Shown one piece after another: positions 24,348-47,393 of a stretch of 55,352 nt of DNA. This DNA is from an uncultured Thermoguttaceae bacterium. Its GTDB lineage: Bacteria > Planctomycetota > Planctomycetia > Pirellulales > Thermoguttaceae. Under the pieces are notes generated by a model. The model searched no databases. It saw only the letters and a program-made list of their open reading frames with translations, and was not told where the DNA came from. The DNA lies in assembly GCA_937951625.1 (NCBI GenBank), contig CALFBP010000072.1, positions 1 to 55,352 of the forward strand. Direction: 5' to 3'. Position 1 is the first letter of the stretch. The number at the start of each line of letters is the position of its first letter. Made by a program: the position numbers and the translations under genes.

Positions 24348-26447
24348 ATGGCGAAGTATTCGGTCGAGCAAATTCGCAACGTTGTTTTTTGCGGCCACAA
24401 GTCGTGCGGCAAGACCACTTTGGTCGACCGCATGTTGACTACCACGGGCATGGTCAAGCGTCCCGCCAGCGTCGACGAGGGGACGAGCATCTGCGATTTC
24501 GACGAGGAAGAAAAACTGCACCGCTACACGATCGAGGCAAGCGTGGCGCATTTCGATCATGCGGGAAAGCACTTCAACGTCATCGACACGCCCGGCTATC
24601 CAGACTTCATTGGCCAAGCGGTGGGCGCGATGCGGGGCGCGGACATGGCGGCGATCGTGATCAACGCCCAGAGCGGCGTCGAGGTCAACACGCGGCGGGT
24701 GTTCGCCGAGGCGGGCAAGGCGGGGCTCGGCCGGATGATCGTCATCAACAAGATGGACGGTGAGAACATCGACTTTCCGGCCCTCGTCGAGAGCATCCAA
24801 AAGCTTTGGGGCAATGCCTGCGTGTTGCTGAACGTGCCGCTGGGATCGGGCGAGGGCTTCCGCGGTGTGGCAAGCACTTTGGATGTTCCCGTCGACACAA
24901 CGGGCGCGCTGGTCGATCCCGCCGAGATCAACCGCTCGATCACCGACTCGATCATCGAGGCCGACGAGGAGGTCATGGAACGCTACCTGGAGGGCACGCC
25001 GCCGACCCGTGAAGAGCTTTCCCGCCTCATCGTCCAGGCGGTGGTCGCCGGCAGCTTGATTCCGATCGTCTGCGTCTCGGCGAAGACGGGTGTGGGATTT
25101 GCGGAGTTGTTGGACGCCATGGCGGTCTGCTGTGTGCCGCCCGACAAGATCGCCCGCAAGGCCACCAGGGGCGACGACGGCGAAGTGGAGGTGAAAGCCG
25201 ATCCCAACGGCCCGCTCGTGGCCCAGGTGTTCAAGACCCGCATCGACCCCTTTGTTCAGAAACTGAGTTTCCTTCGCATTTTCTCGGGCACGCTGAAGAA
25301 GGAGTCGTCGGTGCAGTTGGCCGGGGCGCGAAAGCCGATCAAGCTCGCGCAGTTGTACCACGTTCAGGCCAGCGAGACAGAACCGGTGGACGAGGCGGGG
25401 CCGGGCGAGATCGTGGCGGTGACGAAGGTCGAGGAATTGGTGACCGGCAGCACGCTGGGGGATTTGATGATGCCCCCCATCGCATTTCCCACTCCCATGG
25501 TTGGCTTGGCCGCTTCCCCCAAGAGCCGCGGCGACGAGGCCAAACTCTCCGGTGCGTTGGCCAAGATCGCTCAGGAAGATGGAACCTTCCGCCGCGAGTT
25601 GGACACGCAGACCAAGGAAATGGTCATCTACGGGATGAGCGAGTTGCACTTGCAGATCATCCGCGAGAGGCTCAAGCGCCGCGACAAGGTCGAGGTGGAG
25701 ACCAAGGAACCGAAGATCCCTTACCGCGAGACGATCCAGGCCAATGCCGAGGGGATGTACCGCCACAAGAAGCAGACCGGCGGCCGCGGACAGTTCGGCG
25801 AGGTCCACATCCGCATGTTCCCCTTCCCGCCGGGAACCAAAGTCGAGGAGTTCGCCACCAAGGAACGCTTCCCCCAAATGAAAGAGGTCCATTACGACGC
25901 CGAGAACAATTTTCTCTGGATCGATTCCATCGTCGGGGCCTCGATTCCCGGTAACTTCATGCCTGCCGTCGAGAAAGGCTTCAGAGACCGGTTGGAGCGG
26001 GGGGTGATCGCAGGCTACAAGGTGAAGGACCTCTGTATCGAGGTCTTCTTCGGAAAGCACCACCCCGTCGATAGCTCGGAACAAGCCTTTAAGACCGCTG
26101 CCTCGATGGCCTTTCGTAACGTGTTCCAGCAGGCCAAGCCCAGCCTTTTGGAACCGATCGTGAGGCTGGAAGTGACGGTGCCAGGGGACAAGCTGGGCGA
26201 CATATCCAGCGACATGTCGGGCCGTCGGGGCCGCGTGCTAGGCATGTCGTCCGCCGGTGGCGACCTCCAGACCGTGATCGCCGAAGTCCCCCTGGCCGAA
26301 GTCACCAACTACGCCCGCGCGTTGTCCAGCATCACCGGCGGTCAGGGCAGCTATACCATGGAGTTCACCCGCTACGACCTCGTGCCTGCAAACATCATGC
26401 GCGAAATCGTCGAGAAGGCCCAGCTCAAGGAAGAGGAAGAAGAATAG
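24348..26447 (+). CDS. Elongation factor G-like protein (EF-G2 type, variant G domain)
   Basis: 699 aa with all five EF-G domains. G1 is GHKSCGKTT (16-24) instead of GHIDAGKTT. G3 is DTPGYPDF (79-86) instead of DTPGHVDF, so the catalytic His is Tyr. G4 NKMD (133-136) is normal. Domain IV (YRHKKQTGGRGQFGEVHI) and domain V are intact, and the C terminus is acidic. Family members with this G domain are paralogues of unclear role, sometimes without ribosome-dependent GTPase activity. The canonical fusA is expected elsewhere in the genome. It lies 125 bp after hisA on the same strand. Confidence 0.9.
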   Translation: MAKYSVEQIRNVVFCGHKSCGKTTLVDRMLTTTGMVKRPASVDEGTSICDFDEEEKLHRYTIEASVAHFDHAGKHFNVIDTPGYPDFIGQAVGAMRGADMAAIVINAQSGVEVNTRRVFAEAGKAGLGRMIVINKMDGENIDFPALVESIQKLWGNACVLLNVPLGSGEGFRGVASTLDVPVDTTGALVDPAEINRSITDSIIEADEEVMERYLEGTPPTREELSRLIVQAVVAGSLIPIVCVSAKTGVGFAELLDAMAVCCVPPDKIARKATRGDDGEVEVKADPNGPLVAQVFKTRIDPFVQKLSFLRIFSGTLKKESSVQLAGARKPIKLAQLYHVQASETEPVDEAGPGEIVAVTKVEELVTGSTLGDLMMPPIAFPTPMVGLAASPKSRGDEAKLSGALAKIAQEDGTFRRELDTQTKEMVIYGMSELHLQIIRERLKRRDKVEVETKEPKIPYRETIQANAEGMYRHKKQTGGRGQFGEVHIRMFPFPPGTKVEEFATKERFPQMKEVHYDAENNFLWIDSIVGASIPGNFMPAVEKGFRDRLERGVIAGYKVKDLCIEVFFGKHHPVDSSEQAFKTAASMAFRNVFQQAKPSLLEPIVRLEVTVPGDKLGDISSDMSGRRGRVLGMSSAGGDLQTVIAEVPLAEVTNYARALSSITGGQGSYTMEFTRYDLVPANIMREIVEKAQLKEEEEE

Positions 26448-26626
26448 CCCGGCGGCGGTCCAGGGCGGCGCCGCCCAGCGAACCACACCGCCCGTGCATC
26501 GCCACAATGCTTGTTCTGAAGTTTGCTTTCAGCCGCTCGGTGGACAAAAGTTCGCCACGCGAGTATCTTGGGCGCAGTAGTTTTTTGGATGCGTGTGGGT
26601 CGTGACCAGTGGGGAGGATCGAGCAC

Positions 26627-27052
26627 ATGGCCAAAAAAAAGCCAGCGAAGAAGACGCTGAAAAAGGCGACCACCAAAAAAGCCGCCAAAGTGGCGGGAAA
26701 GAAAAAAACAGCGAAAAAGGCCGTGAAAAAGGCTGCCGCCAGCCCAAAGGCGAAGGCCGTCCGGAAGGTGACGACCAAGAAGATAGTGAAAAAGAAAAAG
26801 GCTGTTAAGCCAACGACGAAAAAGGTCTTCGAGCAAGTGGTCGCCTCCTCCCCGGTCGTGGAAGTCTTGCAAGCGGCGCCTGTCGAAGCTCCAACCCCGC
26901 CGCCTCCAGAAGGGCCGTCTCCTTCGGCCGAACCCGGGCCTTCGGCTACTCCCCCCCAACCACCGACGGCCCTGGTCTCCGAGCCATCTCCCGAGCCCAT
27001 CGCCGAGTCTCCCATAGAGGCGACTTCCCCTTCTGATGATGGGGCAGGTTAG
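26627..27052 (+). CDS. Lysine-rich histone H1-like protein with proline-rich tail
   Basis: About 141 aa. Residues 1-70 are almost all Lys, Ala and Thr (KKATTKKAAKVAGKKKTAKK and similar), like the tail of histone H1 and bacterial HC1/AlgP-type nucleoid proteins. Residues 80-141 are Pro/Glu/Ser-rich. It probably binds DNA or RNA non-specifically. The ATG at 26627 has GGGGAGG about 9 nt upstream; an in-frame start at 26609 is less likely. It converges with the KAS III gene. Confidence 0.7.
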   Translation: MAKKKPAKKTLKKATTKKAAKVAGKKKTAKKAVKKAAASPKAKAVRKVTTKKIVKKKKAVKPTTKKVFEQVVASSPVVEVLQAAPVEAPTPPPPEGPSPSAEPGPSATPPQPPTALVSEPSPEPIAESPIEATSPSDDGAG

Positions 27053-27211: not shown

Positions 27212-28525
27212 TCACCATTCGATTGAGATGGCCGCGGTAGTGATTCCCGCTCCCACGGCGCAGAGGATGAGCTTGTCGCCGGGCTTTAGTTGCGGCTCCG
27301 CCTCGCAGATGGCTAGGGGGATGCTAGCGCTGGAGGTGTTCCCCACGTGTTCGATGTTCATGAAAAACCGTTCGAACGGCACCCCGCTGCGTTTCGCGGC
27401 GGCCTTGAGGATGCGGCTGTTGGCCTGATGAGGAATGATCCAGCGGGCGTCTTGTTCGGTCCAGCCGCTTTGGGCCAGGGTTTGGCGGATCAGGTAGGCG
27501 AAATTATCGGTGGCTGCGCGGAACAAGGCGTGTCCGTCCATGCGAATCCAGGGATCCACCTGCTCGTCGCCATTGAGAATCGCGTAGCCGGGCGACTCGC
27601 GGCGGGCCATTTGCAATTGAGGATCCGCGCTGAGGATGACGCGATGAATCCGGTGGCCCGACGTTCCCGAGGCCACAATCGCCGCCCCGGCCCCGTCGCC
27701 GAACAGAAAGTAGGCGCTGTGGTCCGAGGGGTCCAAGAGACGCGATTGCATCTCGACACCCACGGTGAGCACGTTTCGCGCCAGGCCGCTGAGGATCATC
27801 CCCTGGGCCATCGACACCGCGTATAACCAGCCGGAACACGCGGCGTTGAGATCGAACGCGGGAATCGACCGCAGACACAGCCGATCCTGCAAGATGCAGG
27901 CCGTCGAGGGCATCGCCATGTCCGGCGTAGTGGTGGCGACGATGATGGCGTCGATTTCCTTGGTGGCGATGCCCGACTTGCGGATCGCCTCCAAGGCGGC
28001 CTTGAACGCCATGTTCGAAGGCCTTTCCTCGCCGTCGGCCCAATGGCGCTGGCGAATGCCCGTCACTTGGTAGACATATTGCTCGGAAATCTCCGGGAAG
28101 CTGGCCACCAGTTCGGCGTTGGTCACCACCCGCGGCGGCAAATAGCCTCCCACTCCCAACAGAACCGTACCCTGCTCCTCCCGAGGCGCTAGCAGAGCCG
28201 GGGCAACGGCGGGAACCACGGCGGATTCCGGCCGGCTGGCGGCCGGGGGAATCCAGTCCCGCATGGCCGGGTCCGAGGTCTCGATTTCCATGACGGGTTC
28301 GCTGAGCGGGACGGTCTCGCCTTCCAAACGAAGCAGTCGGATCACCAGTCCGTCGCAGGGGGCCTCGAAATCGAACACCGACTTGGCGCTATCGACCTGC
28401 GCCAAGACGTCGCCCTTGCTGAAACGAGCCCCTTCGGCCACGTTCCACTCGATGATCGTGGCCTCGGTCTCGGCCGCGCCCTGGGCAGGCAAGTACAGGG
28501 AAATCTTGAAATACGTCTTCTCCAT
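27212..28525 (-). CDS. Lipoyl-domain / 3-oxoacyl-ACP synthase III (KAS III) fusion
   Basis: 437 aa. Residues 1-85 are a lipoyl/biotinyl domain (WNVAEGARFSKGDVLAQVDS, then AKSVFDFEAP with Lys48 as the predicted lipoyl lysine). A Pro/Ala linker (92-118) leads to a complete thiolase-fold KAS III: GVGGYLPPRVVTN, GIRQRHW, catalytic Cys230 in LNAACSGWLYA, His366 in IIPHQANSR, and Asn396 in HVGNTSSASIPLA. KAS III normally joins an acyl-CoA to malonyl-ACP. Here the fused lipoyl arm may supply the acyl group, charged by the E1 encoded just upstream. Start: ATG 28525; an in-frame TTG at 28561 is possible. The gene follows the E1 stop by 45 bp, so the two are co-transcribed. The domain calls are firm; the relay is inferred. 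Confidence 0.92.
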   Translation of the reverse strand: MEKTYFKISLYLPAQGAAETEATIIEWNVAEGARFSKGDVLAQVDSAKSVFDFEAPCDGLVIRLLRLEGETVPLSEPVMEIETSDPAMRDWIPPAASRPESAVVPAVAPALLAPREEQGTVLLGVGGYLPPRVVTNAELVASFPEISEQYVYQVTGIRQRHWADGEERPSNMAFKAALEAIRKSGIATKEIDAIIVATTTPDMAMPSTACILQDRLCLRSIPAFDLNAACSGWLYAVSMAQGMILSGLARNVLTVGVEMQSRLLDPSDHSAYFLFGDGAGAAIVASGTSGHRIHRVILSADPQLQMARRESPGYAILNGDEQVDPWIRMDGHALFRAATDNFAYLIRQTLAQSGWTEQDARWIIPHQANSRILKAAAKRSGVPFERFFMNIEHVGNTSSASIPLAICEAEPQLKPGDKLILCAVGAGITTAAISIEW

Positions 28526-28570
28526 GCAATTTCTCGACAAACGCGGCCACCTGCTTCTCAATCGCTACCG

Positions 28571-30772
28571 TCAATGCTCGCCCAGCATCTGCTCGATCGC
28601 CGCGACAATGCGGCTGGCGTTCGGACGATAGTAGGTTTCCAATTCGGGGGCGAAGGGGACGGGGACGTCGGGCGAGGCGAGAAGGCGCGGGCGGCACTTC
28701 CACGTCATGCCGCCGTGGCGCACGACCCAGGAGATCACATGATTGCCCAGACCGTGCGTGGCCCCGCTCTCCTGCACCACCAACAACCGGCCCGTCTTCC
28801 GCACGGAATCAATGATTGGTCCCAAGTCCATCGGTTGCAGGACAAACGGATTCCACACCTCCACGGCCTGCTCGAACCGTTCCGCGGCAGCCACGGCCTC
28901 GTGGACCATCGCCCCGAAGGCCACCACCGTCACCTGGTCCCCTTCCACGTAGCACCGGGCCCGCCACACCGCCTCCAAGTCCCCGTCGAACTCGATCTCC
29001 CCCACTTTGCTCCAGTAGAGGAGCTTATGTTCCAGGACCAGGCAGGGGTTGGGGTCGTAGAAACCAGCCAGCAAGGCCTCGAAGGTCTCTTGCGGCGTGG
29101 CCGGATAGAGCATTTTCAGCCCCGGGAAACGGGACCAAAGCCCTTCATACTCGCCACTATGGAAGGCCCCCATGGTCAGCCCCCCGCCACACGGCAAACG
29201 CACCAACAACGGCGCCGGCGAACCGGAACGAAAATACCACGTTCCCGCATTCAACCCCAATTGCGTGACCGCCTCGGTAGAAAAGTCGGCGAATTGGAAT
29301 TCCACGATCGGCCGGGCGCCGATCTGCGAGGCCCCCAGGGCGAACCCCATGATCCCCGATTCGCTGATTGGCATGTCGATCACGCGATCCGGTCCGAACC
29401 GATCCACGAGACCCTTGCAGGTCTTGAACGCCGAACCGTAGACGCCGATATCCATGCCTACCAAGAACGCCTCGGGACAGTGCGCGAGGATGTATTCCAG
29501 CGCTAGTCGGACGGCATCGCCGTTTTTGACTTTCCGCACCGTCACCGATTGGATCGGCGGCGGTATCGCCGTGTCGAACACGTCCCATGCCTGCCTCGTC
29601 GGAGACGGTCGCCCGACCGCCATGGCCCTGGCCACTGCCTCGCGGACCTCCTCCTCGACCGCCGCCTCGATCTGGGCGACCTCGCTGTCCCGCATGCCGC
29701 AACGTTCCAGCAATTGTCGCCGCGCCCGGGGCAGCGGATCGCGGTCCAGAAACTCCCGCCTTTGATCCGCCGGCACATACTCCCCCTTGTCGTAGACCGC
29801 GTGCCCTTGCAAGCGGAGCGTCATGCACTCGAGGATCGCCGGTTGGGGCTCCGAGGCCATCGCCTCCAAAATGTCGCAGACGGCCGAATACACCGCCCAA
29901 ACATCGGTCCCATCGACCGTGCGGCCCGATATGCCGTATCCTTTCGCCCGATCCGAAAGCCGCTCGCACCGGTACTGAGCGCTGGTAGGGGTCGAGAAGG
30001 CGTAATGATTGTTCTCGATCAAAAACAGGACCGGCACGCGATGCACCGAGGCTAGATTCAGCGACTCGTGAAAATCACCTTTGCTCGATCCGCCGTCGCC
30101 GATCACGGCCAAGCCGAAGACCGGCTCCTTAGCTCGCCGGGCGGCCCAAACACCCCCTACCGCCAGGCTAAGCATTTGACCCAAATGGCTGATCATCGGG
30201 AATCGCCTCTGCGACGCATCCCCGTGATGGACATTGCCTTCCCGGCCATGAGTCGGGCTTTCTTCGTTCGCAAGGTATTGACAGAGCAGTTGATAGGGGC
30301 TCGATCCCCACAACAGGTGCGATCCGAAGTCGCGGTGCAGCAGACAGGCCACGTCACGCCCGGGCCGGAAGGGGATCGCCATGCCAATCGCGGTGGCCTC
30401 GTTGCCCACGCCCGTCGTTACCGTCCCTCTCACATAACCCTTGCGGTAAAGCTCCACCAACCGCTCTTCGAGCCTTCGGGAGAGGAGCATCCACGGGTAA
30501 GCGGCGAGATACAAGGCCTCGGCCGTGAGCCGCTGCGGAAATCGAGCTAGTTTCGAAGTCGCAGTATGCGGAAAATCAAGCCGCCACCCAACGCCGATGG
30601 CCCTAGCCTGAGGCGCCTCAACTGCTTCATCACTGGATCTGTGCGCGGAATGAGCGGACGCAGCGAGACGGGACCCAAATTTGTCGCTCGAATACGTCAA
30701 AAGCGATGCCCTGAAAAGGGGGTGTTGCCGCCACTTGCTCGATTGATGGGGCTCCGTAGCCGCCGCGGCCAA
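28571..30772 (-). CDS. Fused 2-oxoacid dehydrogenase E1 alpha-beta component
   Basis: Up to 733 aa in one chain. The N-terminal half is E1-alpha: MLLSRRLEERLVELYRKG, then the ThDP motif GDGGSSKGDFHESLN (225-239) to NN (254-255). The C-terminal half from about residue 400 is E1-beta: GMDIGVYGSAFKTCKGLVDR, MPISESGIMGFALG, VRLPCGGGLTMGAFHS, YPATPQETFEALLAGFYDP. It decarboxylates a 2-oxoacid and transfers the acyl group to a lipoyl lysine; it resembles the branched-chain/acetoin type but the substrate is unknown. No E2 or E3 is adjacent. The start is uncertain. TTG 30772 would be nearly leaderless from the predicted promoter; TTG 30700 with AGGG upstream fits better. Confidence 0.9.
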   Translation of the reverse strand: MAAAATEPHQSSKWRQHPLFRASLLTYSSDKFGSRLAASAHSAHRSSDEAVEAPQARAIGVGWRLDFPHTATSKLARFPQRLTAEALYLAAYPWMLLSRRLEERLVELYRKGYVRGTVTTGVGNEATAIGMAIPFRPGRDVACLLHRDFGSHLLWGSSPYQLLCQYLANEESPTHGREGNVHHGDASQRRFPMISHLGQMLSLAVGGVWAARRAKEPVFGLAVIGDGGSSKGDFHESLNLASVHRVPVLFLIENNHYAFSTPTSAQYRCERLSDRAKGYGISGRTVDGTDVWAVYSAVCDILEAMASEPQPAILECMTLRLQGHAVYDKGEYVPADQRREFLDRDPLPRARRQLLERCGMRDSEVAQIEAAVEEEVREAVARAMAVGRPSPTRQAWDVFDTAIPPPIQSVTVRKVKNGDAVRLALEYILAHCPEAFLVGMDIGVYGSAFKTCKGLVDRFGPDRVIDMPISESGIMGFALGASQIGARPIVEFQFADFSTEAVTQLGLNAGTWYFRSGSPAPLLVRLPCGGGLTMGAFHSGEYEGLWSRFPGLKMLYPATPQETFEALLAGFYDPNPCLVLEHKLLYWSKVGEIEFDGDLEAVWRARCYVEGDQVTVVAFGAMVHEAVAAAERFEQAVEVWNPFVLQPMDLGPIIDSVRKTGRLLVVQESGATHGLGNHVISWVVRHGGMTWKCRPRLLASPDVPVPFAPELETYYRPNASRIVAAIEQMLGEH

Positions 30773-30784
30773 TCCATGTTCGGC

Positions 30785-30813
30785 ATTGTAATGACCTCGT
30801 CGGACACTGTCAC
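30785..30813 (-). promoter_or_regulatory. Sigma-70-type promoter for the E1/lipoyl-KAS III operon
   Basis: On the minus strand GTGACA (30808-30813), a 17-bp spacer and TACAAT (30785-30790), 5 of 6 in both boxes. Transcription would begin near 30778, which argues against a start codon as early as 30772 unless the message is leaderless. Confidence 0.6.
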
Positions 30814-43802: not shown

Positions 43803-44218
43803 GTCTCGCCTCAGACAAAAAAGTGCAACCATCGCAACCACGGCGCGAACACGTCCCCCTCGCGTAAAAATGGGGACACAAGCGTTCCCGCGCAGCGGTT
43901 AACAAAGCCGGGAGATCGCCGCGTAGGTTTGCCGACGATGGAAAGCAAGTAGCTTAGAATAACACGTTGCTTCCGTCAACGCTTCGCTAGACGAACAACC
44001 AACGATCGGCGGACGGGAGCAACTTGTTGGCGCTCGCCCCGGGTGGACACCGAAGGGCACGTTGGCGTTGGTTCCCGAAACGCCTTTCTCCGTGATGGCT
44101 CGCTTTGGCCAAGAAAACCAGCCCGGCTCACCGCTCGAACCGGCAAACCGGGCGTGGCGATTCGTTTATGCTTTCGCGAAAACCGTTCGGCGATGAGCCG
44201 AAGCGGAACATATCGGGA
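43803..44218. other. Intergenic region upstream of tkt
   Basis: About 416 bp between the tkt start and the clpC stop. TTGACG at 43976-43981 (minus strand) is a possible -35 but no matching -10 at a suitable distance was seen. No gene recognised. Confidence 0.35.
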
Positions 44219-46768
<2,550 letters not shown>

Positions 46769-46771
46769 AGG

Positions 46772-47335
46772 TTATTCTCCGTTGATGTCTTCACGCGGCT
46801 TTTGCGCTGCTTGCGCGTGTTTTTCCGCCGCCCAGCGCCGCTCCATGGCGATTTCCAAGGCCCAACGGGCCGCCTCGTCGATTCGCTCCAGCCGATCCAA
46901 CTCCTGCAAGGCCTCCGCGGTCCGGCCCGTGTGCCGAAACAGCGTGGCCAACATCAAACCTGCCTCCACATCCCTGGGGTTCCTCCGCAGCAGGTTTTTC
47001 AACACACTTTCGGTCTCGAACCAATTGCCGCGCAAGTAATGTTCGATGGCCAGGCTAAAAGAGTCTCCCGGGTCGGTAGCCTCCTCGATCGCGGCCGAAC
47101 CTGCCTCGCGTCTCCACGACCCGATGGCCGCCGCAATCCACCACCCTCCGATCGCCAGCCAAAGTGCGTTACGAACCGCAGACGGCAACAGTTCTGGCCA
47201 GACCAAGCTGGTCAACAAGGCGAATTGAAGCACTGCGGCAGAAGCCAAGGCTACGCCCAGGGCAGACCAATCGCCCCGTCTCCATACCAAGGGAAGTCCC
47301 GGCCAGAGAAATGTCGCCCAAGGCATCCTGCCCAT
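46772..47335 (-). CDS. Membrane protein with TPR-like C-terminal region
   Basis: 187 aa. Two or three hydrophobic segments in residues 8-75 (LGVALASAAVLQFALLTSLV and ALWLAIGGWWIAAAIGSW). The C-terminal half is helical with repeats (FSLAIEHYLRGNWFETESVL, NPRDVEAGLMLATLFRHTGR), typical of tetratricopeptide repeats. It lies 3 bp before clpC and shares its promoter, so it may act with the Clp system or be merely co-expressed. Its start has no strong Shine-Dalgarno. Confidence 0.7.
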   Translation of the reverse strand: MGRMPWATFLWPGLPLVWRRGDWSALGVALASAAVLQFALLTSLVWPELLPSAVRNALWLAIGGWWIAAAIGSWRREAGSAAIEEATDPGDSFSLAIEHYLRGNWFETESVLKNLLRRNPRDVEAGLMLATLFRHTGRTAEALQELDRLERIDEAARWALEIAMERRWAAEKHAQAAQKPREDINGE

Positions 47336-47393
47336 GACGGGTGGCTTTCATACCCGACTTTCCGGCCATCCTCTCGACTCATCTAGCCATGGA

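Follow-up and report, generated by a model that had tools for sequence, protein, structure and literature searches.

In 2-oxoacid dehydrogenase complexes, such as branched-chain keto acid dehydrogenase (BCKDH) and pyruvate dehydrogenase (PDH), lipoyl arms pass acyl groups to the E2 acyltransferase, which leads to acyl-CoA (CoA, coenzyme A). β-Ketoacyl-ACP synthase III (KAS III) enzymes take their primers from CoA or from acyl carrier protein (ACP). Here, we describe a module in which parts of both systems stand together. It is encoded in a stretch of 55,352 nucleotides from an uncultured Thermoguttaceae bacterium (the whole stretch analysed is referred to below as the window), and consists of a gene for a fused alpha-beta E1 followed by a gene for a protein, lipoyl-KAS III, in which a lipoyl domain is joined to a KAS III domain of the FabH type. 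We know of no precedent for a ketosynthase that stands in for E2, joined to an E1 and a lipoyl arm. Both halves belong to known families and have intact catalytic sites; it is their joining in place of E2 that is, as far as we are aware, new. No description of a lipoyl-KAS III or E1-KAS III system was found in a limited search of open-access PubMed Central.

The module shares with the BCKDH and PDH complexes the thiamine diphosphate (ThDP) and His motifs of E1, a lipoyl domain with a conserved Lys, and a flexible linker. Unlike in those complexes, the module protein carries neither an E2 acyltransferase core nor an E3-binding domain, neither an E2 core nor an E3 was found nearby in 50 loci, and a KAS III domain occupies the place of the E2 core, the expected product being 3-oxoacyl-ACP and not acyl-CoA. 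With FabH, it has in common the fold, the Cys-His-Asn triad and Arg249 (E. coli numbering); it differs from FabH in its N-terminal lipoyl domain, its constant E1 partner and the replacement of Trp32 in 60 of 60 proteins. The proposed logic (2-oxoacid, E1, lipoyl arm, acyl thioester, KAS III) is that of the branched-chain route in which BKD works together with FabH (B. subtilis type). There, E2 releases acyl-CoA, a step that the module appears to do without. The H protein of glycine cleavage is similar in having a lipoyl arm that serves its partners without an E2 core or an E3-binding domain, but it carries aminomethyl to the T protein, while the module arm would carry acyl to the ketosynthase. 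BioZ, which is not known to have a lipoyl domain or an E1 partner, was among the structural matches of the module. It is a 3-oxopimeloyl-ACP synthase and, like the module, represents a KAS III specialised for an unusual primer; PMC8024396 names glutaryl-CoA or glutaryl-ACP in this role. A BioZ-like role was considered for the module, and no positive evidence for it emerged.

We propose that the module is probably a 2-oxoacid-primed ketosynthase, made of two proteins in the window and of one in relatives, in which KAS III replaces the E2 core and the acyl group would move from the lipoyl arm to Cys230 and on to malonyl-ACP with no CoA involved. We also lean towards regarding it as a new start of fatty acid synthesis, where an acyl group made by E1 would pass from the lipoyl arm directly to the ketosynthase Cys, without acyl-CoA at any step. 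The genes and sites in question are the following.

28571..30772, minus strand: E1, fused alpha-beta ThDP-dependent 2-oxoacid dehydrogenase/decarboxylase (Pfam), 733 aa from TTG at 30772, start uncertain
30008..30100, minus strand: ThDP-binding motif GDG...ENN in the E1 alpha part (sequence motif)
29147..29164, minus strand: E1 beta His motif FHSGEY (FHS) (sequence motif)
ATG 28525 to stop 27212, minus strand: lipoyl-KAS III, 437 aa
28277..28525, minus strand: lipoyl domain, residues ~1-83 (Pfam Biotin_lipoyl; beta strands in the AlphaFold2 model)
28382..28384, minus strand: predicted lipoyl-lysine Lys48 (DSAKSV), K in 60/60 lipoyl-KAS III proteins
28172..28276, minus strand: linker, ~residues 84-118, pLDDT <50 at residues 94-117, variable in the alignment
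27212..28171, minus strand: KAS III (FabH-type) domain, ~residues 119-437 plus stop (Pfam ACP_syn_III and ACP_syn_III_C; Foldseek)
27836..27838, minus strand: catalytic Cys230 (E. coli FabH Cys112), C in 60/60
27428..27430, minus strand: catalytic His366 (E. coli His244), H in 60/60
27338..27340, minus strand: catalytic Asn396 (E. coli Asn274), N in 60/60

The E1 open reading frame (ORF) matched the Pfam families E1_dh (1.8e-55), Transket_pyr (1.9e-27) and Transketolase_C (8.2e-24), in this order, and since the three follow one another in one ORF, the alpha and beta chains form a single polypeptide. Its identity to 22 relatives having the same E1 type was 61-70%. Both the ThDP and the His motifs were present in all two-gene loci tested (28/28, of 31), while in aligned single-ORF fusions the ThDP motif read GDG...(N/D)N and the His motif (F/Y)H, in 28 of 28 each. 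The catalytic role ascribed to the FHS motif is the one known from PDH and BCKDH E1. The E1 stop (28571) is separated from the lipoyl-KAS III ATG (28525) by 45 bp. A fused E1 with the GDG...NN motif at just this distance upstream had been described in a first-pass annotation, made by a model from the letters of the DNA, and the Pfam matches, the motif positions and the gap all agree with it.

Lipoyl-KAS III matched Biotin_lipoyl (1.7e-10), ACP_syn_III (2.4e-23) and ACP_syn_III_C (2.6e-28) in Pfam, and the NCBIfam model for β-ketoacyl-ACP synthase 3 at 320.8 bits (cut-off 249). Its AlphaFold2 model, which rests on a shallow alignment and is uninformative on docking of the lipoyl arm, had a mean pLDDT of 75.4 and comprised a beta-strand domain, a low-confidence linker (residues 94-117) and a KAS III fold; used in Foldseek, it matched FabH structures, with a best E of 3.1e-32. 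Lys48, Cys230, His366 and Asn396 lie where the first-pass annotation had placed them and were invariant in a 12-row alignment. Across the 60 lipoyl-KAS III proteins described below, the lipoyl Lys and the residues equivalent to Cys112, His244, Asn274 and Arg249 of the E. coli enzyme were each conserved in 60/60, the Lys being found within DSAKSV- or EATKSV-like motifs. Biotin is attached at the motif (A/V)MKM, which was not seen, and a biotinyl instead of a lipoyl domain is ruled out by the motif.

We found lipoyl-KAS III in a total of 60 planctomycete genomes: 31 belong to the window's family (its own genome included) and 29 to other groups. A genome-contig scan, which picks up close relatives only, gave 12 relatives with 58-73% identity, all under planctomycete titles. 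A whole-genome search of the order revealed lipoyl-KAS III in 56 of 396 genomes and 42 of 144 genera (31 genomes in the window's family and 25 in four other families), a search of the class to which another genome of this phylum belongs revealed it in 4 of 298 genomes, and in a phylum-wide draw of 392 genomes the lipoyl part was covered by five among the matches listed. The large searches, made in planctomycete genomes, scored only 4-5 candidates per genome, so that these counts are lower bounds. In plasmids, 317 records matched; none covered at least 80% of the query, and no lipoyl-fused form was among them. A chance fusion or an assembly error is ruled out, since the arrangement recurs in 60 genomes.

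In the window's family, all 31 genomes that carry lipoyl-KAS III have an E1 immediately upstream of it and in the same orientation. Outside this family, 28 of the 29 lipoyl-KAS IIIs are part of a single open frame, E1-lipoyl-KAS III, of 1113-1304 codons from stop to stop; in the remaining case (G566, L219), the parts are split over two overlapping ORFs. The Pfam order E1-lipoyl-KAS III was observed in five of five fusions scanned, three of which are cut N-terminally by the end of the locus. Fused forms were found in five planctomycete families, f6, f7, f16, f17 and f84 (loci L201-L223, L231-L234, L045 and L046), and four of the genomes that have one (G041, G562, G598 and G689) are single contigs. 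The search for KAS III with an N-terminal lipoyl domain and an adjacent fused E1, suggested in the annotation as a check, was thus answered by 31/31 adjacent pairs and 28/29 one-frame fusions. Two further genomes, G004 and G011, had this E1 type (66-67% identity) with no KAS match; the contig stops at the end of E1 in G004 and ~0.2 kb past it in G011.

Based on what is known of the families involved, E1 would decarboxylate a 2-oxoacid on ThDP and reductively acylate the lipoyl group of Lys48, giving S-acyl-dihydrolipoyl-lysine. There being no E2 core to pass the acyl group to CoA, the arm would present its S-acyl-dihydrolipoyl thioester to the KAS III domain in the same chain, where the thiol of Cys230 would attack it in the way that acyl-CoA or acyl-ACP is attacked in other KAS enzymes. 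Malonyl-ACP would dock at the conserved Arg, and condensation would give 3-oxoacyl-ACP and CO2, a chain being begun without free acyl-CoA. The dihydrolipoyl arm would then be reoxidised by the separate E3 of the cell, as happens with the H protein of glycine cleavage. Lipoylation, acyl transfer, the ACP partner and the action of E3 in trans are what we infer here. The annotation had put forward the same route, from E1 through the lipoyl arm and the KAS III Cys to malonyl-ACP with no CoA. The part of it that can be tested on sequence fits (pairing or fusion, 50 loci in which neither an E2 core nor an E3 was found, sites conserved in 60/60, Trp32 lost in 60/60 and Arg kept in 60/60); transfer and CoA independence are predicted.

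The annotation had also stated that an E2 acyltransferase domain and an E3 are absent from the vicinity. Using the E2 core and the E3 of the same genome as phmmer queries, we found neither in the entire 55 kb window, in agreement with that statement, and neither in the 50 module loci (509,281 bases; two contigs are included twice in this set, as L008/L225 and L009/L229). The Pfam scan revealed no E2 acyltransferase core (PF00198) in lipoyl-KAS III, and no match to the E3-binding domain (PF02817) in this protein or in the five fusion sequences scanned. The queries performed as expected on controls: the E2 query finds E2 in four of six comparison loci having other alpha-beta E1 kinds, where an ordinary E2 stands alongside, and the locus of the E3 itself was recovered with the E3 query. 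Four of these six loci were chosen after a lipoyl ORF beside E1 had been seen, and two (L074/L238 and L075/L237) were added later; in L238, the contig ends 0.4 kb past E1. Elsewhere in the window's genome there are one E2, one E3 above the family cut-off, its location outside the window being what the annotation had expected, and LipA. Among the comparison loci, L237 (7957-10146, genome G058) carries a fused alpha-beta E1, and the ~8 kb flanking it on each side contain no ORF for an E2 core, an E3, a lipoyl domain or a KAS. In L073 (genome G005), separate alpha and beta E1 ORFs lie next to a short E2 of 366 aa with a lipoyl domain and a catalytic core, in which an E3-binding domain was not found.

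In FabH, the adenine of CoA is stacked between Trp32 and Arg151, with Thr28 and Arg36 providing further contacts, according to PMC4606726. The corresponding region of lipoyl-KAS III is altered, with the ACP site kept.

28076..28078, minus strand: Tyr150, replacing CoA-adenine-stacking Trp32 of FabH, Y in 31/31 two-gene forms
28064..28066, minus strand: Val154, replacing Arg36 (CoA pantetheine contact), V in 31/31 two-gene forms
27413..27415, minus strand: Arg371, equivalent of Arg249, R in 60/60 and in 29/29 plain FabHs of clades B and D

Trp32 is kept in none of the 60 lipoyl-KAS IIIs, its position being occupied by Tyr in the two-gene forms (31/31) and by Asp, Glu or Gln in the others (29/29); plain FabHs of clades B and D have Trp32 in 29/29 and Arg36 in 27/29. 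Thr28 is likewise kept in 0/60. Arg249, which has a role in ACP docking, is kept in none of the 37 rows of clade C and unassigned KAS III. The combination of a lost Trp32 and a kept Arg249 was seen in all 60 lipoyl-KAS IIIs and in clade B2 (7/7) only, that is, in 0/29 of clades B and D and in 0/37 of the remaining rows. At positions 142 and 189, the two-gene KAS also has Gln and Ala, respectively (31/31 each), and fused forms mostly have Leu.

Two groups of KAS III met in these comparisons deserve mention in their own right. Clade B2 (L135, L141, L143, L117, L111, L113 and L145) consists of divergent KAS IIIs in which no lipoyl domain was seen, with Phe32 and Arg249 in 7/7, and the genomes that hold them also hold lipoyl-KAS III. 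Clade C (L048:9727-10860 and 22 relatives), from the window's family, lacks both Trp32 and Arg249 in 23/23 and keeps Cys, His and Asn; judging by these residues, its substrates likely differ from those of FabH. An ORF that looks enolase-like by eye lies some 6 kb from the clade C KAS III in L048.

In an alternative scheme, E1 and the lipoyl domain feed the cell's ordinary E2 in trans and KAS III uses the resulting acyl-CoA, the fusion serving for channeling only. The failure to find an E2 core in the 50 module loci, the loss of Trp32 (60/60) and, in the two-gene forms, that of Arg36 (31/31) speak against this scheme, and we consider it unlikely, although a number of observations weigh in its favor and against CoA-free priming. 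The single E2 of the window's genome is conventional, with lipoyl, E3-binding and catalytic domains, and could act in trans; KAS III supplied with acyl-CoA is the textbook route to branched-chain fatty acids. L237 (one of six comparison loci) has no E2 within ~8 kb of its alpha-beta E1; lack of a linked E2 is therefore no peculiarity of the module, which lessens the force of E2 absence as a test. A linked E2 in related loci, which the annotation had regarded as incompatible with its proposal, was sought in the 50 module loci and not found; the outcome is favorable, and the test loses some of its force with one of six comparison loci unlinked and another cut by a contig end. As for the CoA site, Arg36 is kept in 25/29 fused forms and Arg151 in 19/31 two-gene forms (19/60 overall), and plain clade B keeps Thr28 in 0/20 and Arg151 in 2/20. 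Because these two residues are mostly lost there too, only Trp32 separates lipoyl-KAS III from plain clade B. Trp32 itself is also missing from clade B2 (7/7, Phe), clade C (23/23) and unassigned rows (13/14); with most other KAS III rows of these genomes lacking it as well, its absence cannot by itself establish CoA independence. Close plain FabHs (E <= 1e-100) are also encoded in 18/31 two-gene and 23/29 fused-form genomes, and the fused-form loci extend only ~1-3 kb beyond the gene, farther genes being outside view.

The KAS III domain could also be a pure acyltransferase that takes the acyl group over from dihydrolipoyl and hands it to holo-ACP or a different nucleophile with no condensation; such a route would be CoA-free as well, with acyl-ACP, an ester or an amide as a product. 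KAS III acyltransferases such as CerJ are known, and the Gln at FabH position 142 in 31/31 two-gene forms is unusual, yet the condensing triad Cys-His-Asn is complete in 60/60, and we judge this explanation to be quite improbable. Still less weight is given to the idea that the module primes a special lipid or polyketide, as opposed to general fatty acids. A special role would be compatible with the presence of plain FabH in most module genomes, but the module occurs in 42 of the 144 genera searched in the order, and no widely shared neighbor family was seen in the stretches compared. In 16 loci, no other neighbor family was present in more than two, apart from an antisense artefact in three; in 29 fused-form loci, where the flank is ~1-3 kb for most, no neighbor family was present in more than six, those six being close kin. 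The polyketide option raised in the annotation is thus unsupported in the few kb around the genes.

The substrate is the least certain part of the CoA-free ketosynthase explanation. The best solved relatives of the E1 alpha part are human BCKDH and the T. thermophilus 2-oxoacid E1 alpha. As these nearest solved chains come from enzymes for branched-chain or related 2-oxoacids, our first guess leans slightly towards a branched-chain 2-oxoacid, with pyruvate second. Against this guess, the E1 beta part in the window is nearest to PDH beta. The best NCBIfam E1 alpha model was PDH_E1_alph_x, below cut-off, and the genome's single E2 scored best as PDH E2, also below cut-off. The two-gene and fused forms may use different acyl groups, since residues 142 and 189 of their KAS domains differ.

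The KAS domains of the two-gene and of the fused forms each make a tight clade (100/100). They stood apart in a first, larger tree; a constrained test did not reject a single clade of both (p-AU 0.62), and they were weakly united (80/72) in a second tree, in which fused forms were better represented. The trees disagree, and the two forms may have had one origin or two independent ones. In the window's genome (97.9% complete), a close plain FabH was not found, the only other KAS III-type matches being a divergent one on contig C80 and one on contig C19, which we take to be OleA-like. Lipoyl-KAS III may be the main chain initiator in this genome. Four more of the 29 fused-form genomes, all from family f84, have a more distant KAS III. 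A general replacement of plain FabH by the module fits the window's genome, as far as its assembly goes, and fails across module genomes (18/31 and 23/29 keep FabH). Since plain FabH is kept in most of them, the module would add a primer route there.

If the proposal is correct, the module couples the oxidation of keto acids to the start of a chain and leaves the acyl-CoA pool untouched, and the lipoyl arm becomes a third kind of primer carrier; the E2 core of a 2-oxoacid dehydrogenase complex would have given way to KAS III, which in planctomycetes would often sit with E1 and the lipoyl arm in one polypeptide of ~1,100 residues. The module would also offer a compact enzymatic route from keto acids to branched or odd starter units. 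With the fused form encoded in a single open frame, the proposal can be tested using few purified proteins. In a paper on ladderanes that deals with planctomycete fatty acid genes (PMC2649909), a term search gave no occurrence of lipoyl, dehydrogenase E1 or pyruvate dehydrogenase. Among the open-access PubMed Central matches listed, none contained lipid data on module genera.

Several other features of the window were recorded. An ORF of 1093 aa with no Pfam match is located at 44105-47386 on the plus strand. Upstream of E1, where the annotation had described a strong promoter, there is the following site.

30785..30813, minus strand: sigma-70-like site GTGACA-17-TACAAT upstream of E1 (weak evidence)

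The site exists as described, but it is poor evidence for a promoter, because three promoter-like sites were found in 5.2 kb versus 1.0 +/- 1.0 in shuffled sequences, and because it ends just 12 bases ahead of the first possible E1 start codon. A small Lys/Ala/Thr-rich protein is encoded at 26609-27052 (plus strand); it has no Pfam match and looks by eye like a histone H1-like basic protein. An elongation factor G-like GTPase, encoded at 24348-26447 (plus strand), adjoins the module, and an ORF related to it lies ahead of the fused gene in L045, possibly by chance.

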